NCBI GenBank assembly: GCA_003242955.1
Contig: QJPH01000292.1
Location: 1-47,460 of the forward strand
DNA from: Candidatus Methylumidiphilus alinenensis
GTDB taxonomy: Bacteria; Pseudomonadota; Gammaproteobacteria; Methylococcales; Methylococcaceae
Reading direction: 5' to 3'
DNA: 47,460 nt
A model generated the notes under the pieces. The model was not told where the DNA came from and ran no database searches. It worked only from the letters and a program-made list of their open reading frames with translations. Below are positions 4,022 through 33,086 of this stretch, one piece after another (positions within the stretch are counted from its first letter, which is position 1; every line of letters starts with the position of its first letter). The translations under genes and the position numbers were made by a program.

Positions 4022-4849
4022 ATGCGGCATGCCAGCGAATTGACCAAACCCATTCTTATCATACAAATCACCGATTTTCATCTGTTCGCTGATCCTATGC
4101 AAACTATGATGGGGATCAGCACCGAAAAAAGTTTTCTCGCCGTGCTGGAACATGCCTGGCGAAACCAAGATGGGGTTGCTTTGTTCCTATTGACAGGCGA
4201 CTTAGCCCAGGAGCCTTCCGTCACCACCTATCAACGCCTAGGGAATCATCTGAACGCACTCAGTGTGCCTTGCTATTGCCTACCCGGCAATCACGATGAT
4301 CCCGAATTGATCCGGCAAAGTTTGGCGAAAGGGAATATCCATTATGATTCTCAAGTTCTATTGGATGGATGGCAGATCATCTGCTTAGACAGTACAGTCC
4401 CACTCGACCCCAGTGGCTATCTGGCCCCAGGCCAAATGGACCTGCTCGAAGCCAAGCTTGCCGAACAGCCAAAACGCCATGCCTTGATTTGCCTCCACCA
4501 TTCGCCCCTCCCTACCGGAGCTAGATGGCTCGACACAATGAAGTTGTTTAACGACGAATCTTTTTTTAAGCTGGCTGGCCGTTATCCCCAAGCCAGGGGC
4601 GTGGTCTACGGGCACATCCACCAAGCCATGGATGTAACACACAACGGCCTGCGCTTGCTAGGATGCCCCTCGACGTGTTTTCAGTTCAAGCCAGACACTG
4701 ATGATTTCGCGCTGGACAGAGTGCCGCAAGGTTATCGATGTATAGAACTCCATCCCGACGGGAAAATTTCTACGAAAGTCGTGCGCATGGATTCCGTGCC
4801 GCATGGCTTGGAAATGGACTCCAACGGCTACAAAGACCATGGGGCCTGA
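4022..4849 (+). CDS. cpdA: 3',5'-cyclic-AMP phosphodiesterase
   Basis: This 275-residue cytoplasmic metallophosphoesterase of the CpdA/Icc family would hydrolyse cAMP to AMP. All dinuclear metal motifs are visible in order: D-x-H in ITDFHLF (D18, H20), LTGDLAQE, PGNHDD, a late LHHSPL histidine pair and YGHIH. Length matches the family. The start is set at the ATG at 4022 because AAAGGA lies 9 bases upstream; an in-frame TTG directly after that motif is too close to use it. The gene overlaps the DsrC/TusE-like gene by 11 bases, implying co-transcription. Confidence 0.9.
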   Translation: MRHASELTKPILIIQITDFHLFADPMQTMMGISTEKSFLAVLEHAWRNQDGVALFLLTGDLAQEPSVTTYQRLGNHLNALSVPCYCLPGNHDDPELIRQSLAKGNIHYDSQVLLDGWQIICLDSTVPLDPSGYLAPGQMDLLEAKLAEQPKRHALICLHHSPLPTGARWLDTMKLFNDESFFKLAGRYPQARGVVYGHIHQAMDVTHNGLRLLGCPSTCFQFKPDTDDFALDRVPQGYRCIELHPDGKISTKVVRMDSVPHGLEMDSNGYKDHGA

Positions 4850-5973: not shown

Positions 5974-6717
5974 TTAATATGCTTCCCGCAACCGCCCGCG
6001 CATCTGGTTAATTTTCTCCCTTGTCAACGGTTGGCGCTTTTCGTCCCACTCAACACCGCCCAAGTTCAACGCCAGTTCGTGGCAGGTGGCGACTAGATCG
6101 TCGAAAACTTCAAGCGGTTCATCCACTTGCGGTGGTTGGAAGAATAGCACTACGCCAGGACATTCGAAATTTTCCATGTCTTTGATGGGAAATGTGCCCG
6201 GCTCCACTAGACTGGCAACACTGAACAGCGGGACACGATATTCGCGGTCATAGCGATGGTAGATTCCCATGTCACCGTAAATCAAACGCAGATCGTCCAA
6301 GGAATCACGCAGTTGTAGTCCGTTGAAGAACCCACCTTTGGCAACGACGCTGATTTGTATAAGGAAGGGTGCGCCCAAAGGATCTGTTTGGGGCTGGTCT
6401 CTACGGACCGGTTCCGTCTGAACTGGTTCGGGTTGTTCCTCCATTAATTTCCGTTGGCTGCGATCCGAATTGTTAAAACTGATTGGGGGGTCTTTCCTTG
6501 CCAAAGAACCGCTATAGTACCCGGCCTTGGCGGGCTTGGACACGTCTTCGGGTGGCGGCGGTTCCCCATGCTCTTCCAACGCGTCGTATTCGCCGCGTTG
6601 GTTGATGAAATCCAACAGCTTTTTCTTATGGCGTCCCCAAACATAGACGCTTGCGATGACGAAAACGCCCGCTACGGCTAATAGCAAGCGGAGTGTTTCA
6701 CTATCCATTTGTTCCAT
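5974..6717 (-). CDS. zipA: cell division protein ZipA
   Basis: This 247-residue protein has the ZipA plan: a short periplasmic N-terminus, one membrane segment (about 10-27, LLLAVAGVFVIASVYVWG), a charged and proline-rich linker (PPPPEDVSKPAKAG onwards) and a C-terminal FtsZ-binding domain (about 120-245). That domain includes FLIQISVVAKGGFFNG and the conserved GVVLFFQPPQVDEPLEVFDDL. ZipA anchors FtsZ polymers to the inner membrane. It lies 10 bases downstream of smc on the same strand, the common smc-zipA order. The ligA gene that often follows is absent here. Confidence 0.93.
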   Translation of the reverse strand: MEQMDSETLRLLLAVAGVFVIASVYVWGRHKKKLLDFINQRGEYDALEEHGEPPPPEDVSKPAKAGYYSGSLARKDPPISFNNSDRSQRKLMEEQPEPVQTEPVRRDQPQTDPLGAPFLIQISVVAKGGFFNGLQLRDSLDDLRLIYGDMGIYHRYDREYRVPLFSVASLVEPGTFPIKDMENFECPGVVLFFQPPQVDEPLEVFDDLVATCHELALNLGGVEWDEKRQPLTREKINQMRGRLREAY

Positions 6718-11299: not shown

Positions 11300-12238
11300 T
11301 TATTTATCCCTCCACCTGCCATCGCCGGATCGGGTGCGGACGGGTTTGCGGGGCGGGGCTTCGGGTGCAAGGCCAACCGAAACAAGCAGGCTATCCCGTT
11401 GTTCTGGCAGGAGTTCGGTATATGTCCGCGCCTTGATATGGGGCGGCAGCACGATATTGCCGAAGCGGATGCGAATCAACCGGCTAACGGCGATGTTTTG
11501 CGACTCCCACAAGCGGCGGACAATACGGTTGCGGCCCTCGCTGAGGGTGACGTGATACCAGTGGTTGGAACCCTCGCCGCCGGCTTCGACAATAGCGTTG
11601 AAATGCGCCGGACCATCTTCCAATTCCACGCCTTGTTTGAGCCGTTCTAGCATGTCTTCGCTAACCTGCCCCAACACCCGCACCGCGTATTCGCGTTCAA
11701 TCTGCCTGGACGGATGCATTAGCCGGTTTGCCAACTCGCCATTATTAGTGACCAGCAGCAGACCTTGGGTGTTGATATCCAAACGGCCTATGTTGATCCA
11801 GCGGCCAATTTCCAGGCGCGGCAGTTGTACAAAGATAGTCGGCCGTCCTTCCGGGTCGCGGCGGGTGACGATCTCGCCGGTAGGCTTGTGGTATAGCAAA
11901 ACCCGCGTCGCTTGGTTGACCCGTTTCTCGACATTGACCGGGCGTCCACGCAGCATCAGTTGGTCGCCTTCTTTCCAGCGGTCGCCCAGTTTGGCGGGGT
12001 TGCCATTGAGTAAGACTTCGCCGCTTTCGATCCAAGTTTCGATTTCCCTGCGCGAGGCTAAACCGGCATGGGCCAGCACTTTTTGAATGCGCTCCCCTTC
12101 GGTTTCCCTCGCTTTGCCATCTTCCAAGGGTAAAGGGTTCATTGTTTCAACGGTATTAACCTTCGACGGGGCGGGTCGTTGGCTAGGGCGCTTGGTCCGT
12201 ATGGTTTTCTGGTTGTCGGGTGGTTTCGGTTTGGTCAT
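11300..12238 (-). CDS. rluB: 23S rRNA pseudouridine(2605) synthase RluB
   Basis: This 312-residue protein has an S4 RNA-binding domain (about 45-100, with RIQKVLAHAGLASRREIE) and the RsuA/RluB-type synthase domain. The catalytic aspartate is in INIGRLDINTQGLLL and the later motif EGRNRIVRRLWE is intact. RluB modifies U2605 of 23S rRNA. The N- and C-terminal tails are basic and low in complexity, as is common in RluB. The start at 12238 follows the MTKPKPP reading; scpB runs 56 bases into this gene. The scpA-scpB-rluB order is frequent in proteobacteria. Confidence 0.9.
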   Translation of the reverse strand: MTKPKPPDNQKTIRTKRPSQRPAPSKVNTVETMNPLPLEDGKARETEGERIQKVLAHAGLASRREIETWIESGEVLLNGNPAKLGDRWKEGDQLMLRGRPVNVEKRVNQATRVLLYHKPTGEIVTRRDPEGRPTIFVQLPRLEIGRWINIGRLDINTQGLLLVTNNGELANRLMHPSRQIEREYAVRVLGQVSEDMLERLKQGVELEDGPAHFNAIVEAGGEGSNHWYHVTLSEGRNRIVRRLWESQNIAVSRLIRIRFGNIVLPPHIKARTYTELLPEQRDSLLVSVGLAPEAPPRKPVRTRSGDGRWRDK

Positions 12239-15514: not shown

Positions 15515-15528
15515 TGGCGGAGAAGGTG
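15515..15528. repeat. left attachment site (attL core)
   Basis: TGGCGGAGAAGGTG is identical to the last 14 bases of tRNA-Ser(UGA) at 33073-33086 (reverse strand). It lies 176 bases before the integrase start. Confidence 0.85.
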
Positions 15529-15649
15529 TCCGCCATTTTGACATTTAAGAGCCTCCGTCTAAGTCCACATTTATATAAATATATCAATATCATAAGACTC
15601 TAATGTGTCCGTTGAAGTTTGTTGCTTTCCGCCACAATCCGGGGTATAT

Positions 15650-15671
15650 TTTGTGGGCAGATTTGTGGGCA
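15650..15671 (+). promoter_or_regulatory. putative integrase arm-type sites, left end
   Basis: Two direct copies of TTTGTGGGCA start at 15650 and 15662, 12 bases apart, directly before the integrase gene. The same pair with the same 12-base step and orientation occurs at 33008-33029 next to the right attachment site. Position and spacing suit arm-type binding sites of a tyrosine integrase. Confidence 0.6.
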
Positions 15672-15690
15672 ACTTTTCGGGGTGAATGCA

Positions 15691-16890
15691 ATGGGTAAGA
15701 AGGCCAGTCCGCTAACCATCAACTCGTTACGCAAGAAACAAGGTAAGCATAGGGTTGAGCGTAGCCTTTATCTGAATGTGCGGGGTGAATCCGCAACATG
15801 GTGTTTCCGTTACATGCTCAAGGGCATTTCTCACGAAATTGGGCTTGGGAGTGCAGATGTTGTGGATTTGGCGAATGCTCGTCATGAAGTCGGGAAGTTG
15901 CGAATTCAATTGCACGAAGGCATAGACCCTTTGGCGGAAAGGCGCAAATCAACAACCTCGGCCACCTTTGAAGCAGTGGCGGCTGAATTGATCGAGTCCA
16001 AACGGGCCGCTTGGCGAAATGCCAAACACGCCCAACAGTGGACAAACACCCTGACCCAATATGCCTACCCGGTTTTAGGCAAGCTTCACGTTAAGGACAT
16101 CGAAACCGAGCATGTCTTGAAAGTGCTAAAGCCCATTTGGAAGGAAAAGCACGAAACCGCAACGCGGTTGCGCCAGCGCATTGAAGCAGTATTGGACGCG
16201 GCGGCGGCTAAGGGCTTGCGTGATGCGCTAAACCCGGCACGTTGGAAAGGCCACTTGGACAAGCTGCTTTCCGCAATCCCGAAAGCCGACCGGGTACAGC
16301 ACCATGAGGCCGTGCCATGGCAGGACATGCCAGCATTCATGGGGGAACTTCGCCAGCAGGAGGGAATAGCGGCTCTTGCCTTGGAATTCATCATCCTGAC
16401 CGCCACTCGAACCAGCGAAACCTTGAACGCCCAATGGGATGAGGTCAATTTGGATGAAGGAATCTGGACTATCCCCAAAACGCGCATGAAAGCCAAGCGG
16501 GAACATCGAGTCCCACTCTCCCTAGCGGCTATGGAGGTGTTGAACAAAGTACCGCGCATTGACGGCAACCCGTTCATTTTTCCGGGCCGCAACGATAAGC
16601 CCTTATCCAATATGGCAGCGGCTATGCTGTTACGGCGGATGAGTCATGAAGAAACCACACACGGCTTCCGTTCATCGTTTCGGGATTGGGTAAGCGAAGC
16701 AACGAACTTCAACCCTGAATTGTCAGAGATGGCCTTAGCCCATACCATAGGCGATGAAACGGAGGCCGCTTATCGTCGGGGCGACCTGATGAAAAAGCGC
16801 CAAAAGCTGATGCAAGCTTGGGCGGATTACCTAGGCGGGTTGAAGAAAGGCGCGGACGTGATACCGATCAAGCGCGGGGCGGCGAAGTAA
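15691..16890 (+). CDS. int: tyrosine site-specific integrase (P4-type)
   Basis: This integrase of about 399 residues has an N-terminal DUF4102-like arm-binding domain, a SAM-like core-binding domain (about 100-190) and a catalytic domain. The catalytic residues are visible: arginine in LTATRTSETLNAQ (about 240), HGFRSSFRDW (about 323-332), histidine in ALAHTIGD and the nucleophilic tyrosine in AAYRRGD (about 361). It would recombine the element with the tRNA-Ser 3' end. The ATG at 15691 has GGGGTGA upstream; a longer frame would run through the TTTGTGGGCA repeats. It lies at the end far from the intact tRNA gene. Confidence 0.92.
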   Translation: MGKKASPLTINSLRKKQGKHRVERSLYLNVRGESATWCFRYMLKGISHEIGLGSADVVDLANARHEVGKLRIQLHEGIDPLAERRKSTTSATFEAVAAELIESKRAAWRNAKHAQQWTNTLTQYAYPVLGKLHVKDIETEHVLKVLKPIWKEKHETATRLRQRIEAVLDAAAAKGLRDALNPARWKGHLDKLLSAIPKADRVQHHEAVPWQDMPAFMGELRQQEGIAALALEFIILTATRTSETLNAQWDEVNLDEGIWTIPKTRMKAKREHRVPLSLAAMEVLNKVPRIDGNPFIFPGRNDKPLSNMAAAMLLRRMSHEETTHGFRSSFRDWVSEATNFNPELSEMALAHTIGDETEAAYRRGDLMKKRQKLMQAWADYLGGLKKGADVIPIKRGAAK

Positions 16891-16929: not shown

Positions 16930-17142
16930 ATGGCAAGCGTTGCAGAAAAAATAGTTGAGACGGTCAAGGGCATGTCGGAACAGCAAGCGGCGGCGGTCTT
17001 GGACTTTGCGCAAGCATTGCAAGCTAAAAAGGATGATGAGTATGAGCAAGCCAAGCAGAAGGCACTTGCCCTGCTTGACGACCCACCACTTGCACTGAAT
17101 GGGCGATATTGGTCTAGGGAGTCTCTCTATGACAGGCTCTAA
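16930..17142 (+). CDS. putative antitoxin paired with a PIN-domain toxin
   Basis: This 70-residue acidic protein has an N-terminal helical part (VAEKIVETVKGMSEQQAAAV) and a C-terminal tail ending GRYWSRESLYDRL, like small DUF2281/VapB-type antitoxins. AGAGG precedes the ATG. It overlaps the following PIN-domain gene by 14 bases, the order expected of an antitoxin. The assignment rests mainly on this context. Confidence 0.7.
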   Translation: MASVAEKIVETVKGMSEQQAAAVLDFAQALQAKKDDEYEQAKQKALALLDDPPLALNGRYWSRESLYDRL

Positions 17143-17551
17143 GTTTGTCGATACCAACATCCTGCTATATGCCAACGACAAGACGGCGGGGGACAAGCAA
17201 AGGAAATCGGCTGACTTGCTTAAGGCGTTGTGGGCAACTCATCAAGGCACACTCAGCACACAGGTTTTGCAAGAATTTTTCTATAATGCCACGCGAAAGC
17301 TGACCCTACCGCTTAATGTGCCAGTGGCAAGGGGCATTTTCCAAGCATACGGCGCATGGTTGAAAGGGCCGGTTACGGATTCCACCATCATTGGCGCGAT
17401 TGACCTACACACAAGCCTTGGTTTTTCCTTTTGGGATTCGCTGATAATCAAATCAGCTTTGGACAATGACTGCGACACGCTGTATAGCGAAGACATGCAG
17501 CACGGGCAGTTGATCGACGGGCGTTTGACGGTCATCAACCCTTTTATTTGA
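17129..17551 (+). CDS. PIN-domain toxin (VapC-like ribonuclease)
   Basis: The 140-residue PIN protein shows the acidic active-site residues in order: FVDTNILLYA near the N-terminus, a glutamate in STQVLQEFFYNA, an aspartate in LGFSFWDSLI and a late acidic patch TLYSEDMQHG. VapC toxins cut specific RNAs, often tRNA or the rRNA sarcin-ricin loop. The start at 17129 is the ATG directly before GSKFVDTN; the longer frame overlaps the antitoxin gene more deeply. With 16930-17142 it probably stabilises the element. Confidence 0.85.
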   Translation: MTGSKFVDTNILLYANDKTAGDKQRKSADLLKALWATHQGTLSTQVLQEFFYNATRKLTLPLNVPVARGIFQAYGAWLKGPVTDSTIIGAIDLHTSLGFSFWDSLIIKSALDNDCDTLYSEDMQHGQLIDGRLTVINPFI

Positions 17552-17705
17552 AGAACCCGACCGGCACGGGCCACCGTTCCGGGCGTGTACCGATAGACAA
17601 CATTCAACGAATTGCCAAGCCTAGCCCGACGGGGCGAATAGCGGGTATCTCAACCGCGTGGCTTGGCTCCCATCTTGAGAACTGGCACAAGAGAGGTGCT
17701 TATCC

Positions 17706-19414: not shown

Positions 19415-19666
19415 ATGACCGCGACAAATCAATTACCCACTGAGGGCTACTGCCGTCTAACCCAAATCCTTGGCAATCCCAAAGCCAAACCTAACCCAAT
19501 TCCTCCCCTTGTGCCTGTATCCAAGTCCACTTGGTACGATGGCGTGAAATCCGGTAGATTTCCAGCACCTGTGTATATAGGGCGGTCTTCCCTTTGGAAA
19601 TGCGCCGACATCAGGAAACTTATAGAGCGCATTGGGAAAGGGGAGTTTGCAAATGAGCAAGGGTAA
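19415..19666 (+). CDS. AlpA-family DNA-binding regulator
   Basis: This 83-residue protein of the AlpA/MerR-like winged-helix type has the core VSKSTWYDGVKSGRFPAPVY followed by GRSSLWKCADIRKLIERI, the common pattern of AlpA excisionase/regulators. In P4-like prophages and PICIs, AlpA activates integrase and excision. The gene starts the replication cluster, and its 3' end overlaps the next gene by 14 bases. An inverted repeat covers its translation start. Confidence 0.88.
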   Translation: MTATNQLPTEGYCRLTQILGNPKAKPNPIPPLVPVSKSTWYDGVKSGRFPAPVYIGRSSLWKCADIRKLIERIGKGEFANEQG

Positions 19667-20009: not shown

Positions 20010-20018
20010 GGCATGGGA

Positions 20019-20696
20019 ATGAATACCAAAGCATCAAATATTATCCGCTTGAATTATCAGGGCTTGAATGTGGGTTTCACCGGGGATGGTTGGTTCAACG
20101 CCACGCTTGCCGCTGAAAAGTTTGGGAAGCGTGTTGACCACTGGCTTAAATCACAGGAAACCAAAGAGTACATTAAAGCTTTGGCAAGCCATCTAAATAC
20201 CCCCAAAAGGGGGGATTTAATCCAGACTAAGCGGGGCAAGAACGGCGGGACTTGGCTTCACCCTAAGCTTGCCGTGGCGTTTACCCGTTGGCTTTCGCCT
20301 GATTTTTCGGTTTGGTGCGACTGCCAGATTGACGGGCTGATTCGTGGCAACCATCCCCACTACGACCGATTGAAGGCACGGGACAAGTCGGCGGTTTCCT
20401 TCAAGTTCATGAATGATGTACTGAAACTGGTGCGCTTGGATGAGGGTAAGGAAACCTTGGACTACCACTATCAAAACGAAGCCAAGCTTTTGAACTGGCT
20501 AGTGACTGACGAATTCAAAGCCGTGGAGCGGGATACGCTAGACGCTGGACAGTTGGCCTTGCTCACTGCCTTGGAGGAACGTAACGCCATTTTGCTGGCG
20601 CAGCGGGTCAACCGTGACGACCGCAAACAAAAGCTTGCCCAATTCGCCCAAGAGTGGCGGAACGGTCAAAGCCACGCATTGGGGAGGGCGGCATGA
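20019..20696 (+). CDS. KilA-N domain protein
   Basis: This 225-residue protein has a KilA-N DNA-binding domain at residues about 10-105, with GFTGDGWFNATLAAEKFGKR, WLKSQETKEYI, then GGTWLHPKLAVAFTRWLSPD and VWCDCQIDGLI. The rest is helical with no second known domain. KilA-N proteins are common in phages and satellites and are usually regulators or anti-repressors. The ATG at 20019 is preferred because GAGG lies seven bases upstream; an ATG at 20013 is too close to it. Confidence 0.88.
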   Translation: MNTKASNIIRLNYQGLNVGFTGDGWFNATLAAEKFGKRVDHWLKSQETKEYIKALASHLNTPKRGDLIQTKRGKNGGTWLHPKLAVAFTRWLSPDFSVWCDCQIDGLIRGNHPHYDRLKARDKSAVSFKFMNDVLKLVRLDEGKETLDYHYQNEAKLLNWLVTDEFKAVERDTLDAGQLALLTALEERNAILLAQRVNRDDRKQKLAQFAQEWRNGQSHALGRAA

Positions 20697-21935: not shown

Positions 21936-22919
21936 ATGGAAACATCAAGCAATCAAGCATTTACACCACTTAACACCGAAGATTTCAGAACCCACATCCT
22001 AGGCGAATATGGCCTTGCCCTTGTCGGCGACATCAAGGCAGACGGGGCGTTTCACTATCTCGGCACAACCGAAGACAAGAAGGGCCATAAGCCTTTCCGT
22101 TACTGTGTCCATGCCGATACCCCTTGCAATGTCTATTTCAACGATCTTAAGCGCGGCTTTCATGGGGTTTGGTATCCAGAAGGCCAGCAACCGCTAACCC
22201 CTGCCGAGCGCGAAGCGCGGCGGCGGGAGATCGAGCAACACAAGGCGCAGCGCGAAGCCGAAACCCAAGCCAGACACCGCAAACGGGCGGCATGGGCCTT
22301 GAAGCTGTGGGAGTCTGCCCATCCTGCCGATGGCTCACACCCCTATCTAGTCCGCAAGGGCGTGAAGGCCCACGGGCTTAGGCTGTTACCGGTTTGGGAA
22401 AAGCGTATTTACCCAGACGGCGGCGGTAGCCAGTTCGAGGTAATCCCCATCGAAAACGTGCTACTGGTTCCGATGAAAGACGAAACCGGGGCTTTGTGGA
22501 ACGTGCAACTGATCTACCCGCAAAAAATCTTATTAGGCGATGAAGAGCGCGACCGGGATTTTCTACCAGGTGCGCGAGTCACCGGACTATTCCACTGGCT
22601 AGGCGAGCGTACTGAGACGGTTTGCCTTGCCGAGGGCTATGCCACTGCCGCAAGCGTCCATGAAGCCACGGGATACCGTTGCTTTGTGGCATTTTCGGCT
22701 GGCAACCTTCCCCATGTGGCGCAAGCGGTACGGGCGGCTCTCCCAGATGCCAAAATCGTAATCGGTGCAGACTTCGACAAGCCCGACAAAAAAGGCCGGC
22801 GGGCTGGAATCGAGAAAGCCGAAGAAGCGGCGGGGCTGGTAGGGGGCTTTGTGGCACTGCCACCGATTGAAGGCGCGGACTTCAACGATTGGGCCAATAC
22901 ACTCAGGATGGGCCAGTGA
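21936..22919 (+). CDS. TOPRIM-domain primase
   Basis: This 327-residue protein resembles plasmid/satellite DNA primases of the DUF7146/TOPRIM type. The N-terminal part (1-90) is of unclear fold, a charged helix (about 88-130, EREARRREIEQHKAQREAET) follows, then a catalytic core with SHPYLVRKGVKAHGLRL. The TOPRIM domain includes the glutamate in VCLAEGYATAASVHEATGY (about 231) and the acidic pair in VIGADFDKPDKKGRRAG (about 278). It would lay primers for element replication. Its stop overlaps the helicase-like gene by one base (ATGA), so the two form one unit. Confidence 0.87.
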   Translation: METSSNQAFTPLNTEDFRTHILGEYGLALVGDIKADGAFHYLGTTEDKKGHKPFRYCVHADTPCNVYFNDLKRGFHGVWYPEGQQPLTPAEREARRREIEQHKAQREAETQARHRKRAAWALKLWESAHPADGSHPYLVRKGVKAHGLRLLPVWEKRIYPDGGGSQFEVIPIENVLLVPMKDETGALWNVQLIYPQKILLGDEERDRDFLPGARVTGLFHWLGERTETVCLAEGYATAASVHEATGYRCFVAFSAGNLPHVAQAVRAALPDAKIVIGADFDKPDKKGRRAGIEKAEEAAGLVGGFVALPPIEGADFNDWANTLRMGQ

Positions 22920-25087
22920 TGGACGATAAACCGACCGACATTAAAACCCTTGTGGACAAGGCCGGAAAGCCCAAACAACCTGGCAAGCCAACTGCCAGAC
23001 TCGAAACAGGCAAACCGCAAGCCCAAGCCGACCGCGCTAATGTGGTGAACTTGAAAGAGGAAACCGCCTTGCGCTCGGCGTTTGAGCGGAAAATAGAACA
23101 AACGGAAGACAATACCGCGCTGATGTATGGCGTTGGGATGGATGTCAACAAGTCTGCTTTGCGCAAAGCCTCCAAAGAAGCCCTATTAAAGCTGATTGCC
23201 AAGAAAGCCACTGTGTCGCTGGAAATTCTCAAGGCCGATTTGCAAGACGCGGGGGGCGAACAGCAAGGGCGTGGGAGGGCGAATGCCGGTTTCCTGCCCT
23301 ATGAGAACAAAGGCAATCAGCTTTGGGTGATGGATGACCAAGGGCCGCGACCGCTGTGCAACTTTGTGGCGTGGATTGCCGAGGAAATCATCCATGACGA
23401 CGGCTTGAATGAGGAAGTGCTGTTTTGCATCGAGGGCCGTTTGCATGACGGTACGGAATTTCCGCGTGTTGAAGTGTCATCCTCCAAGTTTGCCAGCCTG
23501 TCATGGGTGACAAGCGAATGGGGGGCGCGGCCTTTGATTCACGCCGGAACGTCGATCAAAGACCACTTGCGCACGGCGATACAGGGGCTTGTTCCCTGCA
23601 ATAAACGGCGCAAGGTCTACGGTCACACCGGCTGGCGCAAAGTGGGTGATGAGTGGCTGTTTCTGCATGGCGGCGGGGGGATTGGCAAGGATGGCCACAA
23701 GGCCGAGATTGAGGTTAAGGCCGGGGAAGGCAACATGCGGCACTACCGTTTTGAGGATGAAGGCGGCGGCGATTTGTGCGCAGATGTGCGGGCGAGTTTA
23801 CGCCTGTTGGACATTTCCGCATCAAACCGGGCCGTGGGGGTTGTCGCTCTGGCTAACATTTACCGCGCACCCTTGGGCGATGCCGCATTGATTGATTTTG
23901 GGGTGTGGCTGTCTGCCATCACGGGTTCTCGCAAGTCCGAGGTTACTGCATTGATGTTGGCGCACTTTGGGAGGGGATTTTCCGGGGCGCGGAGCTTCCC
24001 GGCTAATTGGGATGACACCGAAAGCGACCTTGAAGCCAAGGGTCATGCCGCTAAGGATTGTGTGTTTGTGGTTGATGACTTCAAGCCAAAAGGGACACCC
24101 AACGATGTCCACAAGCTCCATGCCAAGGCAGACCGTTTCCTTCGCGCTGTCGGTAATCAGGCTGGGCGCGGGCGGCGGACCAGCGACATGAAACAGCGAG
24201 CGGCCTATTTTCCCCGCTGCATGGCAGTCTCATCGGGTGAGGATATTCCACGCGGGGCTTCCCTCCGTGCGCGTCTGGTGTTGGTCGAGTTGAGCGTGAC
24301 CGACATCGACAACGGCATTCTGAGCGAACTGCAAAAAGCGGCAAGGGATGGGGCTTTGGAGCGGGCCATGGGCGGTTTCTTGCGCTGGTTGGCTCCTACT
24401 ATGGACAGTTGGAAAAAAGCCCTGCCTGAACTACGGCGGTCATTGCGCGACGGGGCAAACCAAGAAAGCTTTGCCAAGGCACACCCACGGGCAGCGGATA
24501 TTTACGCCAATTTGTTGATTGGGGTGGATTTGTTCTTTATGTATGCGGAATTGGAAGGCGCGGTGACGGCGGAAGAGCGTGTTGCACAGTTCGAGCGTTG
24601 CCAAACCGTTCTGAAAGAAATGATTGCCGCCCAAGGTGACATGCAAGCCGACCAAGACGAGGTGACGCAATTCCTTGGTTATCTCAAGTCTTCCTTCAAT
24701 GCCGGGATGTGCCATTGTGCCGACCGACATAAACAAGGGCCACCTTCCAAGCCGTCTTCTTTTTGGGGCTGGAAAGAGATTCCGGGCATTGGAGAAAACG
24801 CGCCAATCATCGACAAGCCGAATGGTGAACTGATTGGATGGGTTGACGAATTGCGCGTTTATCTGGATGGTAACGCGGCTTTTGCGGCGGCTCAGGAGAT
24901 GGCAAAGGCCACGGGAGAGAACCTAGCTATTACTCAACGTAGCCTATTTGTACGCATGGACGAGCGGGGGATGTTGCTGGATGTAGCCAAGGAAGCTGGC
25001 AAAGTGAGACGTGACCCAAAACGCACTATTGCTGGTGTACCTAGGCGGGTCTTTATCATGAGCCGGAAAACTATAGAGGATAGGTAA
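22919..25087 (+). CDS. DUF927 helicase-like replication protein
   Basis: The 722-residue protein has a basic, disordered N-terminus and a central DUF927-type domain (about 120-500) related to superfamily 3-like helicases of satellites. A variant P-loop AITGSRKSEVTALMLAHFG places Lys at about 339, with Arg where the usual Gly stands. Walker B is CVFVVDDFKP near 382, and the conserved ISSGED-like region reads AVSSGEDIPRGASLRARL. The last 150 residues look like a winged-helix region. With the upstream primase it is the likely replication initiator. The ATG at 22919 is selected because it overlaps the primase stop. The symmetric repeats at 25096-25347 begin nine bases after its end. Confidence 0.82.
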   Translation: MDDKPTDIKTLVDKAGKPKQPGKPTARLETGKPQAQADRANVVNLKEETALRSAFERKIEQTEDNTALMYGVGMDVNKSALRKASKEALLKLIAKKATVSLEILKADLQDAGGEQQGRGRANAGFLPYENKGNQLWVMDDQGPRPLCNFVAWIAEEIIHDDGLNEEVLFCIEGRLHDGTEFPRVEVSSSKFASLSWVTSEWGARPLIHAGTSIKDHLRTAIQGLVPCNKRRKVYGHTGWRKVGDEWLFLHGGGGIGKDGHKAEIEVKAGEGNMRHYRFEDEGGGDLCADVRASLRLLDISASNRAVGVVALANIYRAPLGDAALIDFGVWLSAITGSRKSEVTALMLAHFGRGFSGARSFPANWDDTESDLEAKGHAAKDCVFVVDDFKPKGTPNDVHKLHAKADRFLRAVGNQAGRGRRTSDMKQRAAYFPRCMAVSSGEDIPRGASLRARLVLVELSVTDIDNGILSELQKAARDGALERAMGGFLRWLAPTMDSWKKALPELRRSLRDGANQESFAKAHPRAADIYANLLIGVDLFFMYAELEGAVTAEERVAQFERCQTVLKEMIAAQGDMQADQDEVTQFLGYLKSSFNAGMCHCADRHKQGPPSKPSSFWGWKEIPGIGENAPIIDKPNGELIGWVDELRVYLDGNAAFAAAQEMAKATGENLAITQRSLFVRMDERGMLLDVAKEAGKVRRDPKRTIAGVPRRVFIMSRKTIEDR

Positions 25088-25095
25088 TGTTTTTT

Positions 25096-25347
25096 AGTGG
25101 GGAGAGTGGGGATATATAGCTAGAACCGTTGTAGCATAAGGCTTTCACGCTCCCCACTCCTAAAAAAAGAGTGGGGAGATTCCCCACTTGAGTGGGGAGC
25201 AGAAATTGAGGCAGGGCAAACCAACAAACCGGCCTATGCAACACGCTCCCCACTTTGAGTGGGGAGAATCCCCACTAAAAAAACGCAGTGGGGAGGCTGT
25301 AATCCACGTCAGCCGTGGGCTACAGCCAATCTCCCCACTCTCCCCAC
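25096..25347. repeat. candidate replication origin: 12 mirror-placed AGTGGGGAG motifs
   Basis: GTGGGGA occurs at 25097, 25106, 25171, 25192, 25259 and 25288, and its complement TCCCCAC at 25151, 25181, 25247, 25269, 25332 and 25341. The strand order (+ + - + - + / - + - + - -) and distances are mirror-symmetric about 25222 to within one base. Neighbouring motifs are mostly 9-11 or 20 bases apart, so on one helix face. The spacers are only weakly symmetric, which points to selection on motif placement. An AT-rich stretch follows (25390-25500). Position after primase and helicase genes suits an origin with iterons. Confidence 0.65.
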
Positions 25348-25729
25348 TCCTGCAACATAGGTACATAGCTGGTTTGCGTGTGTGCCTGTGTGTGCCATGA
25401 CAAAACCAACTATAAATCATAGAGTTGCTAAAAAAAACAAGCAAAATAAGGCGAAAATCCGGCACACTTCGACGGAAAAACCAAAATTTCGATTGTAGAG
25501 TGAGGGGGTATGCGTGAACAAGGCCAATGGACAGGCAACTCAAGCAGTGAGATCAAGCGCAATGCACCTTGTCGGAAAAAGTGAAAATACCGCTTTTGAA
25601 GGGGGGGGTAGTGCTTTCGCCTGTGGAACGCCCATGGAATCAGGATTTTACCCGCCGAAAAACTTGAGGGGGTATCGGCTAGGCGGTTTAACTGGTGATT
25701 TAGTGCAGAGATTAAAGGGGGTAGATCGA

Positions 25730-25912
25730 AGCCACGGGCTACCGGCGCAAGCCTTCACGGTCTGGCGGGGCAAGCCGATTGCCGATAGCACCACGGGCAA
25801 GGCTCCACGATCTGGCGGGAGCCTTCCAACCCACGGGCCAAGCGAAAGGAACCCTGCCCTTGGGCGGTCTGATTGGATGTTGAGCGAAGCCACGGGCAAG
25901 CCATGCCTTACG
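25730..25912 (+). repeat. single diverged copy of the 258 bp repeat unit
   Basis: This stretch follows the same order of words as the array at 30994-32225: CCTTCACGGTCTGGC, ACCACGGGCAAGGCTCCACG, GAGCCTTCCAACC, AACCCTGCCCTTGGGCGG. It lies five kb from the array. An open frame across it (25514-25972) is not accepted as a gene. Confidence 0.75.
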
Positions 25913-25982: not shown

Positions 25983-26348
25983 ATGAACAAGCGAACCGAG
26001 TACCAACGGGAATACATGCGGAACTACCGGGCCAAGGAGCGTGAAACGAGGGCAACCGCCATACAGGCCAACCCGCTTGCCGACATTGGCATGACGGGCT
26101 TCACCGATAGGCAGCTTGAACAGTTGCGGGGGATTGTGCGGGGTGAATTGGAAACCCTGCTAACGCCGCTAACGGCAAATAACGTAAACACGGTTAGCAA
26201 GCCAGCATCCAAGCTAACAGCCACTAACGTAAACAGGGTAAACAGGCTTTGCCGACACTGCGGTAAGCCATTCACCGGGCAATCAACCAAGGTGTATTGT
26301 GCGGACCCTTGCCGCAAGAAAGCATTTAGGCTGAGGGCCAAGACATGA
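25983..26348 (+). CDS. small zinc-ribbon protein
   Basis: This 121-residue protein begins with a very basic segment (RTEYQREYMRNYRAKERETR) and ends with a zinc ribbon CRHCGKPF...YCADPCRKKAFRLR, where four cysteines would bind zinc. A middle helix (DRQLEQLRGIVRGELETLL) may mediate oligomerisation. Such proteins are frequent in satellites and phages and probably bind DNA, though the function is not known. The start at 25983 is the ATG before NKRTEYQ. Its end overlaps the SSB-like gene by four bases. Confidence 0.75.
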   Translation: MNKRTEYQREYMRNYRAKERETRATAIQANPLADIGMTGFTDRQLEQLRGIVRGELETLLTPLTANNVNTVSKPASKLTATNVNRVNRLCRHCGKPFTGQSTKVYCADPCRKKAFRLRAKT

Positions 26349-26731
26349 TTGACTCATTGATTAGCGGGAAGCTGATACGCGACCCGACCACCAAGACCGG
26401 GCCAAGCGGCAAACCGTATTGCAACTTTTTATTGACGGTGTTCACGGGCGAAGAAAGCCCAGTTGTCGTAAGCGGCATAGCCTTTCAGGACGTGGCGCAA
26501 CGGATAGGCAAGCTTGCCAAGGGCGATGCCTTGACAGTCACCGGGGCATTGAAGCCTTCAACCTGGGCGGACAAGGCCACGGGCGAAACCAAGCACGGGC
26601 TTAATGTCACCGTGTCGGCTTGCCTGTCTGCCTATGACGTGAAGAAAAAGCGCACACCGCCAAGCACCAACGGCGACAACGCCAAGCCCCACGACTATTC
26701 ACCGGGCTTTGATGAACCCTTGGATTTCTAA
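26345..26731 (+). CDS. single-stranded DNA-binding (SSB-like) protein
   Basis: The 128-residue protein has the start of an OB fold (SLISGKLIRDPTTKTGPSGK, then NFLLTVFTG) with a G-D-A-L-T-V-T-G-A-L strand and a second half like SSB (TKHGLNVTVSACLSAY). A flexible linker and a short acidic-hydrophobic tail DEPLDF follow, similar to the SSB tip that recruits partners. It would protect single strands during replication of the element. It is coupled to the zinc-ribbon gene by a four-base overlap and lies amid the G-tract motifs. Confidence 0.8.
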   Translation: MIDSLISGKLIRDPTTKTGPSGKPYCNFLLTVFTGEESPVVVSGIAFQDVAQRIGKLAKGDALTVTGALKPSTWADKATGETKHGLNVTVSACLSAYDVKKKRTPPSTNGDNAKPHDYSPGFDEPLDF

Positions 26732-27479: not shown

Positions 27480-27700
27480 ACTTGAACGAAAGTAATCCTG
27501 CCCTTGGCGGTCTGGCTGGACGGTGATCGAAGCCACGGGCAAGCCGGAACCATGCCGAGCGACCGCACCGGCTGAAAGACTTCCCCTCCTGCCCATGGTC
27601 TACCGCACTCGGCAAGGCCACCACGCGGGCAGGGCTTGACGGTCTGGCATGGCAAGGCATGTGACCAGACGAAAGGAATCCTGCCAGCGCAACGGACAAC
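27480..27700 (+). repeat. degenerate copies of the 258 bp repeat unit
   Basis: Words of the array unit recur here in diverged order: TAATCCTGCCCTTGGCGG, TGATCGAAGCCACGGGCAAG, GGGCAGGGCTTGACGGTCTGG and AAAGGAATCCTGCCAGCG. The stretch immediately precedes the 3' end of the cargo operon. No gene is supported in 27371-27707. Confidence 0.6.
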
Positions 27701-30993: not shown

Positions 30994-32225
30994 AGCCACG
31001 GGCAAGGAACCCTGCCCTTGGCGGTCTGGTTGGATGGTGATCGAGACCACGGGCAAGGCCGGAACCTCGATCAACCCGGACGGCAAAGCCGGAATTGGGC
31101 AGGGCTTCACGAACTGCCAGCACACCGCCACCGAGGAAGCCACGGGCTACCGGCGCAAGCCTTCACGGTATGGCAAGGCAAGGCCATTGCCGAGCGCACC
31201 ACGGGCAAGGCTCCACGATCTGGCGAGAGCCTTCCAACCTCAAGGCCACGGAACTAGCGAGAGGAATCCTGCCCTTGGGCGGTCTGGTTGGACGGTGATC
31301 GAAGTCACGGGCAAGCCGGAACCCCGATCAAGCCAGACGGCAAGGCCGGAATTGGGTAGGGCTTCAACGGTCTGCCAGCACACCGCCACCAAGCAAGGTA
31401 CGGGCGACCGGCGCAAGCCTTCACGGTCTGGCAGGGCAAGGCCATTGCCGTTAGCGCCACGGGCAAGGCTCCACGATCTGGCGAGAGCCTTCCAACCGTC
31501 AAGGCCACAGGACTAGCGAGAGGAATCCTGCCCTTGGCGGTCTGGTTGGAGGGTGATCGAAGCCACGGGCAAGGCCGGAACCTCGATCAATCCAGACGGC
31601 AAGGGCGGGACTTGGCAGGGCTTCACGGTCTGGCAGCGCACCGCCACCAAGCAAGGCACGGGCGACCGGCGCAAGCCTTCACGGTCTGGCAGGGCAAGGC
31701 CATTGCCGTTAGCACCACGGGCAAGGCTCCACGATCTGGCGAGAGCCTTCCAACCGTCAAGGCCACGGGACTAGCGAGAGGAACCTTGCCCTTGGGCGGT
31801 CTGGTTGGACGGTGATCGAAGCCACGGGCAAGGCCGGAACCTCGATCAAGCCAGACGGCAAGGCCGGAATTGGGCAGGGCTTGACGGTCTGCAAGCGCAC
31901 CGCCACCAAGCAAGGCACGGGCAACCGGCGCAAGCCTTCATGGTCTGGCAGGGTTAGCCGATTGCCGTTAGCACCACGGGCAAGGCTCCACGATCTGGCG
32001 AGAGCCTTCCAACCGTCAAGGCCACGGGACTAGCGAGAGGAATCCTGCCCTTGGCGGTCTGGTTGGATGTTGAGCGAAGCCACGGGCAAGCCGGAACCTC
32101 GACCAAGCCAGACGGCAAGGCCGGAATTGGGCAGGGCTTCACAGTCTGCCAGCGCACCGCCACCAAGAAGGCACGGGCGACCGGCGCAAGCCTTCACGGT
32201 CTGGCAGGGCAAGCCGATTGCCAAA
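30994..32225 (+). repeat. tandem array of about 4.7 units of a ~258 bp repeat
   Basis: The phrase CCTGCCCTTGG (one copy with a base change) starts at 31011, 31268, 31527, 31785 and 32044, giving periods of 257, 259, 258 and 259. Each unit contains four variants of a sub-block CGGTCTGGC...CACGGGCAAGG. Units are nearly identical apart from small substitutions and one-base indels, which shift frame between units. The last unit stops after about 180 bases at AAGCCGATTGCC. Open frames exist on both strands but shift from unit to unit, so coding is unlikely. 30780-30993 shows no gene. Confidence 0.85.
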
Positions 32226-33072: not shown

Positions 33073-33086
33073 TGGCGGAGAAGGTG
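33073..33086. repeat. right attachment site (attR core) within tRNA-Ser
   Basis: TGGCGGAGAAGGTG, read on the reverse strand, is the CCA end and acceptor/T-arm edge of tRNA-Ser(UGA). An identical copy at 15515-15528 marks the other end of the element. The integration restored the tRNA 3' end. Confidence 0.85.

Follow-up and report, generated by a model that had tools for sequence, protein, structure and literature searches.

A mirror-symmetric array of twelve words beside primase and Rep genes as a candidate replication origin of a P4/PICI-like integrative element in Methylococcales

An array of twelve short words in the genome of Candidatus Methylumidiphilus alinenensis is, judging from sequence comparisons, very likely the replication origin of a P4/PICI-like integrative element, bound by the Rep protein of the element and built of two inverted half-origins with six words each. 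The window, that is, the whole stretch of 47,460 bases that we analysed, contains twelve exact matches to GTGGGGA at 25097-25347, in the order ++-+-+|-+-+--, and outside the array only two more, at 20354 and 29581. The place (25097-25103 to 25341-25347) and the order of the twelve words are as reported in a first-pass annotation of this DNA, and so is the mirror symmetry about a centre near 25222: the word centres pair about 25222.5, with the sums of the six pairs departing from their median by 4 in all. Start-to-start gaps between the words are 9, 45, 20, 10, 11, 55, 12, 10, 19, 44 and 9 bases; the annotation's statement that most neighbours are one or two helical turns apart is right, the gaps of 44, 45 and 55 being the ones that do not fit. 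When words were placed at random with random strands over the same span, none of 20,000 trials reached this symmetry with full strand antisymmetry, and permuting the observed gaps and strands equalled it in 4 of 200,000 cases; note that the symmetry statistic was picked after the array had been seen, and that the real test is given by the relatives.

The left arm (25097-25198, plus strand) has its words at 25097-25103(+), 25106-25112(+), 25151-25157(-), 25171-25177(+), 25181-25187(-) and 25192-25198(+). In the right arm (25247-25347, minus strand) the layout is inverted, with words at 25341-25347(-), 25332-25338(-), 25288-25294(+), 25269-25275(-), 25259-25265(+) and 25247-25253(-). All these words are exact matches, and the layout of both arms was also found by a search that was blind to the word. 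The centre between the arms (25199-25246) is not AT-rich, with an AT fraction of 0.50 and 0.45 over the 40 bases inward from each arm. The first word, at 25097, lies 9 bp 3' of rep, whose stop ends at 25087, and the AT-rich outer flank of the left arm (25050-25096; GC 0.34 over 25050-25099) overlaps the end of this gene. On the other side, the outer flank of the right arm (25348-25449) includes the strongest AT-rich tract, 25400-25449 with a GC fraction of 0.24, which agrees with the AT-rich tract described earlier as following the array. Directly beside the words the outer flanks of the window are only mildly AT-rich (AT 0.60 and 0.50 over 60 bases), less so than those of the relatives described below.

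Is this layout kept in related elements? Relatives of Rep at E <= 1e-30 are present in 43 of the 301 genomes of the window's order (Methylococcales), and the Rep profile at 1e-40 finds 3 of 369 genomes sampled from the window's class, its own genome included. We assembled a sample of 42 sequences, consisting of the window, 40 stretches of 8-18 kb from the 54 listed places with a Rep match, and L013, a contig of a Methylococcaceae MAG that carries the closest named Rep relative and stands for G025, a genome of the window's genus; 12 further match places, mostly weak or truncated, were left out. The scan accepted any seven-letter word, provided that no fewer than five of the six sites were occupied by it with no more than one mismatch, where word 2 starts at 8-10, an inverted word at 51-58, and the next three follow as a word 18-24 bases on, an inverted word 7-12 on and a word 9-15 on.

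This word-blind scan found 45 six-word arms (about 0+, 9+, 54-, 74+, 84-, 95+) in 27 of the 42 sequences, the arms being partly dependent (L041/L042 and L058/L059 are pairs from the same genome, and L041 and L043 are near-identical). The same scan gave no arm in 731,646 bases of mononucleotide shuffles or in 1,463,292 bases of dinucleotide shuffles. Within the bounds of the scan the offsets fell at 8-9, 52-56, 72-76, 82-86 and 93-99, and they were exactly 9, 54, 74, 84 and 95 in 10 of the 45 arms. The word, on the other hand, may be GTGGGGA, TGGGGGA, TAGGGGA, TGAGGGA, CTGGGGA, TTGGGGA, CTTGGGA, TTGGGAG, GTGGGAA or GGGGAAC depending on the element, with a GGGA core retained in nearly all of them. 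The first-pass annotation had proposed to test whether related elements keep the motif positions while the spacers vary; this is what we see in the 27 sequences, and the word varies as well. It had also named relatives without the symmetry as evidence against an origin, but from element to element it is the word that differs, and hardly the placement. With the exception of one duplicate in L036, all 45 arms lie 3' of rep at a distance of up to about 1.2 kb; since the stretches had been picked around rep, this position does not by itself prove a link. The duplicate in L036 repeats the right arm exactly over 121 bp (11434-11554 and 6305-6425), at a distance of 5.1 kb from the origin.

The strict scan found no arm in 15 of the 42 sequences, some of which carry other or partial arrays. 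For example, L054 and L066 have mirror arrays with a different inner layout, L053 and L068 have weaker ones, L070 (where rep is in two pieces) has a word cluster, and partial remains are seen in L049 and L055. In eight sequences (L062, L065, L067, L069, L071, L073, L074 and L075) there was nothing comparable, and three of these (L062, L069 and L073) contain clusters of 6-mers. The order of the arms is reversed, right before left, in L048, L060 and, by eye, L037, so that there the AT-rich outer flanks fall in the middle. Outside the order, the locus of the Rep relative L084 has twelve words in the mirror order +++-++|--+---, and L085 has inverted sets of 6+5 words in register, where the candidate for a twelfth word differs at two bases and does not keep the register; in both, the inner layout is unlike that of the window. 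A search of IMG/VR with the single Rep protein gave no match; the Rep profile picked up five distant relatives there, all lacking a strict arm. With a pattern that required three of the words, we came across two IMG/VR contigs, L081 (9289-9349) and L082 (1608-1668), that have inverted GTGGGGA sets around an AT-rich stretch; by eye, the spacer resembles the AAGCC palindrome described below and the adjoining ORF appears helicase-like.

A search of whole genomes for the pattern formed by the first three GTGGGGA words of an arm is independent of the choice of stretches around rep. In the 6.6 Mb genome to which the window belongs, this pattern occurs once per strand, that is, in the two arms only. 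It was found in 6 of the 301 genomes of the order, the backwards control in none of the 301, and all six genomes are among the 43 with a Rep relative. Of the 13 match places, nine are found 3' of a Rep relative at a distance of less than 1 kb and another is the duplicate in L036; the remaining three (two sites, one of them matched on both strands) are in genome G047, on a contig other than that of its Rep match. This G047 array (L109 4530-4730) consists of GTGGGGAA words in a near-mirror order, extends over the end of a gene near the end of the contig, and has an SSB-like ORF (by eye) nearby; it is not beside the Rep relative of that genome. A pattern of four words built on the shorter core TGGGGA matched 2 of the 301 genomes, both times beside rep and with no match of the control, and missed the window because its gaps had been set too tight. 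The region 24900-25600 had no match in a DNA search against plasmids.

The two genes upstream, both on the plus strand, end just before the array, as had been noted: a primase with a Toprim domain (21936-22919) and rep (22889-25087), which encodes a 732-aa protein. The primase shares 36% identity with the N-terminal part of the P4 alpha protein (185 columns, E 1e-17) and is present in 38 of the 42 sequences, whereas the helicase is present in all 42 because the sequences were chosen by it. In L036 and L075, a single ORF, of 1074 and 1105 aa respectively, has both the primase and the Rep match, an arrangement like that of P4 alpha. The 732-aa protein had no accepted match in Pfam, PHROG or NCBIfam. 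Pfam does not give the earlier name DUF927 for the protein itself (no such match up to E 5); 2 of 28 members of its family match PF06048 at E <= 0.01, and the predicted fold agrees with PF06048. Although the AlphaFold model, built from a seven-row alignment, reaches only a middling confidence (mean pLDDT 70), its best PDB matches in Foldseek are the SaPIbov1 Rep (8tch, E 2.2e-13) and the SCCmec helicase Cch (5dgk, E 9.6e-12), so that we take the protein for an initiator helicase with the predicted fold of SaPIbov1 Rep and Cch and a winged-helix-like domain at its C-terminus. For the last 96 residues, modelled as winged-helix-like, 8tch again comes first, with a weak E of 0.04 and no match at <=0.001. 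A sequence search of the PDB with the Rep profile gave only short matches resembling choline-binding repeats, and tblastn with Rep matched 2 of 50,697 records of phages and 8 of 72,556 records of plasmids, with identities of 31% at most.

We compared the differences between words with those between Rep proteins at 24 loci. The correlation was 0.286 for the C-terminal domain and 0.27-0.29 for other parts of Rep; beyond relatedness, the words did not follow the C-terminal domain, the partial correlation being 0.059, with 581 of 2000 permutations as high.

Apart from the words, the arms share further elements. The spacer between words 2 and 3 is 36-40 bases long and contains a palindrome of the type AAGCC-N11-GGCTT, which is independent of the word, is kept in elements of the window's order and is not seen in P4. 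In the window, the spacer of the right arm (25295-25331, minus strand) has the palindrome ggctgtaatccacgtcagccgtgggctacagcc at 25295-25327, and that of the left arm (25113-25150, plus strand) has a degenerate copy. In relatives, words 3 and 4 of an arm often have an A- or T-tract between them; in the window A-tracts lie there at 25162-25168 and 25277-25283 (both plus strand). For 40 of the 45 arms (all but those of L042 and L059 and the third one of L036), the AT content of the outer 30 bases is 75% in left arms (n=24) and 63% in right arms (n=16), as compared with 53-54% for the inner 38 bases and 48-50% for the loci. A spacer consensus, allowing up to 2 mismatches, has the right-arm spacer as its single match in its own genome, and the palindrome pattern has no exact match in IMG/VR, although this pattern is a narrow one (it is exact in only two of 90 loci, both being the same place of one genome). 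Accordingly, we rejected the idea that the palindrome is a genome-wide repeat.

The array appears to belong to an integrative element. A 14-bp direct repeat, TGGCGGAGAAGGTG, is found at 15515-15528 and 33073-33086, and its right copy is the 3' end of a tRNA-Ser gene, therefore the element probably spans about 15.5-33.1 kb; the two repeats are the probable attachment sites of this 17.6 kb element. int-alpA RNAs are typical of P4-like integrative elements. One is located at 17614-17680 (Rfam RF02996, 53 bits), and together with a tyrosine integrase (15619-16890, plus strand), the primase and Rep, and the attachment repeat at tRNA-Ser it gives the features of a P4-like element. On the plus strand, the element also encodes a small HTH protein resembling AlpA (19415-19666; AlpA E 0.052 and HTH_17 0.0032, both below cut-off, and PHROG 66 weakly), a KilA-N protein (20013-20696) and a single-strand DNA-binding protein, SSB (26345-26731). 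None of sid, delta, psu and epsilon appeared among the ten proteins scanned.

The first-pass annotation regarded such an array as unusual. We find it less so, as the P4 ori and the PICI origins are close precedents. Read from the right, the P4 ori (X51522, 9310-9413) has six type 1 repeats at 0, 10, 53, 75, 86 and 96, as compared with 0, 9, 54, 74, 84 and 95 in the arm, and its orientations, ++-+++, agree with those of the arm, ++-+-+, at five of the six sites. All six sites are within 2 bp; since 625 of 368,073 six-site layouts drawn at random over an equal span come as close, this match is suggestive, but not a proof. Both have AT-rich DNA just outside the first word and an initiator with a related Toprim primase domain. 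On the other hand, the P4 ori is a single arm, located 2.3 kb from alpha and with the word GGTGAACA, whereas here two arms with GTGGGGA lie beside rep, and its AT-rich spacer has, by eye, no palindrome of the AAGCC type such as the arms have here. While the primases are related, a relation between the helicase part of P4 alpha and Rep is not detectable (hhalign probability 17.8). At the sequence level the helicase part of P4 alpha has a match in SaPI5 Rep (7ola, E 1.3e-7) but no detectable one in the Rep described here; helicases of different families thus seem to be combined with layouts that are alike.

In P4 the ori is apart from crr, whereas here we see a single combined locus and no other array. 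Like the array, P4 crr (4291-4590) lies immediately downstream of the initiator gene and has two units that carry words. These are two direct 120-bp repeats with five annotated words each, at 0, 9, 52, 70 and 84 in the order ++--+; the first three offsets are thus like those of the arm, but the repeats are direct and not inverted, and the later orientations differ.

The plasmids known as iteron plasmids also have repeated initiator sites, mostly as direct repeats and with other initiators. For the PICI origins, Fillol-Salom 2018 (PMC6092414) states that they are located 3' of rep, that an AT-rich region in them is always flanked by two sets of iterons, and that a plasmid was maintained by the rep-ori segment of one Gram-negative PICI. 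For SaPI Rep, PMC7581432, citing Ubeda 2007, describes a C-terminal domain that recognises the iterons directly 3' of its own gene, apparently with two hexamers. PICI and SaPI origins resemble the array in their position immediately 3' of rep, in the two iteron sets and in a Rep of the SaPIbov1 fold. They differ in that the PICI sets flank the AT-rich region, whereas in the window the DNA between the arms is not AT-rich and the AT-rich stretches are found beyond them; in the relatives with reversed arms named above the AT-rich flanks are central, unlike in the window. SCCmec Cch and Cch2 are, according to PMC7581432, similar to Rep in being self-loading helicases with repeats downstream of the gene, Cch (5dgk) being the second-best fold match; the putative Cch2 origin has three iterons there, unlike the twelve words here. 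The proposal that an origin lies beside the primase/helicase pair is thus supported by comparison, as the word placement is kept in 27 of the 42 sequences and the best fold match of Rep is to the SaPIbov1 protein, of the kind that recognises iterons 3' of its own gene. In our best reading, the array has the position of P4 crr, the layout of P4 ori and the general plan of a PICI origin, and works like the origins of P4 and PICIs without being exactly either.

How might such an origin work? Rep, a presumed self-loading helicase encoded just upstream, would use the winged-helix-like domain at its C-terminus to bind the twelve words. Either arm would be a half-origin in which six words at fixed places are combined with a spacer palindrome, an A-tract and AT-rich DNA on the outer side, and would take up one Rep hexamer, so that the two inverted arms could seat two hexamers in opposite orientation. 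These may melt the AT-rich flanks and unwind the DNA, presumably outwards. The primase and the replisome of the host would then copy the excised circle, with the origin probably firing both ways. We suggest one hexamer per arm and a two-way origin because there are six words per arm, the arms are inverted, and the adjoining gene encodes a predicted helicase of a self-loading, ring-forming kind.

A more general idea, which we put forward tentatively and hold to be slightly more doubtful than not, is that the six-word arm is a self-contained half-origin for loading a helicase, with one word for each subunit of the Rep hexamer. Its geometry would be kept across P4 alpha and the SaPIbov1-type Rep, its word could be exchanged wholesale, and the arms could be doubled or placed in either order. 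If this is true, the origins of P4, of PICIs and of the elements described here are assemblies of one module.

We considered what else the array could be. It could be a cis-acting control site like P4 crr, for copy control or as a looping partner, while replication starts elsewhere in the element. P4 requires both ori and crr, the array occupies the position of crr directly 3' of the initiator gene, and the crr repeats resemble the arm in where their initial three words stand (0, 9, 52). However, the six-site layout is closer to P4 ori than to crr, and instead of a second array there are only the two single words elsewhere in the window and the two arm matches genome-wide; we think this explanation unlikely. 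It is very unlikely, in our opinion, that the words are operators from which a regulator (KilA-N, AlpA-like or another DNA-binding protein) controls the downstream genes. Repeated words frequently are operators, and both KilA-N and AlpA-like proteins are encoded in the element. Still, KilA-N is not a constant partner of the array: we rejected this protein, which had been proposed earlier as a binder, since a homologue is found in just 2 of the 42 sequences (window included; a lower bound, as most stretches hold only about 4 kb upstream) in contrast to 38 for the primase. AlpA-like proteins are commoner, and the argument from rarity does not apply to them. The two downstream genes scanned have homologues in 0 and 1 of the 41 other sequences, twelve words laid out in mirror order over 250 bp exceed the need of an operator, and the arms come in the opposite order in L048, L060 and, by eye, L037.

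The inverted words, with loops of 3-4 bases, and the palindrome in each spacer can pair, and could thus form single-stranded hairpins, either in RNA or in single-stranded DNA for priming or rolling-circle replication. When the spacer stem is slid, fewer cells pair, at most 47.9% as compared with 62.2%, but this would be true for any palindrome. In 35 spacers of the 40 arms (L038, L039, L040 and the L043 pair were left out) we were not able to find covariation: 62.2% of the cells are paired versus 63.7% after shuffling, and 436 of 500 shuffles were as high. RNAalifold predicted no structure for the spacers, deviations common to inverted word pairs were no more frequent than by chance (38 arms), and Rfam had no match at gathering scores at the array. 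These results speak against a hairpin or RNA role, which we regard as highly improbable; in the absence of a pairing signal in spacers and word pairs, the words seem to be held alike by whatever reads each word. Clustered inverted words occur also in partition, packaging and recombination sites, and we find it equally hard to believe that the array is one of these. No partition or terminase family was seen among the adjoining proteins scanned, integration seems to take place at the tRNA end 8 kb away, and in nearly all sequences it is a primase that stands beside Rep.

A replication origin bound by Rep thus remains the preferred explanation, and it touches on a live question, namely how a self-loading helicase ring is assembled on duplex origin DNA. 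Some two dozen elements with a near-fixed layout and a changing word are a natural experiment in this respect. The layout suggests that the initiator needs a geometry and not a sequence, with one site per subunit of the ring; it links the origins of P4 and of PICIs, and may serve as a word-independent signature for origins of uncharacterised integrative elements. Neither this layout with changing words nor such elements in Methylococcales turned up in the open literature, as judged from titles and the start of abstracts, which is weak evidence of novelty since subscription papers were mostly outside the search.

Two other parts of the element deserve mention. Between the integrase gene and the int-alpA RNA, at 16930-17551, there are two small ORFs that, by eye, resemble those of an antitoxin and a PIN-domain toxin. 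Near its right end, at 31005-32222, a 258-bp unit is repeated 4.7 times in tandem with 91% matches; pieces of this unit are also found at 25728-25831, 25847-25900 and 27491-27551, and two other contigs of this genome, C25 and C50, carry pieces as well.
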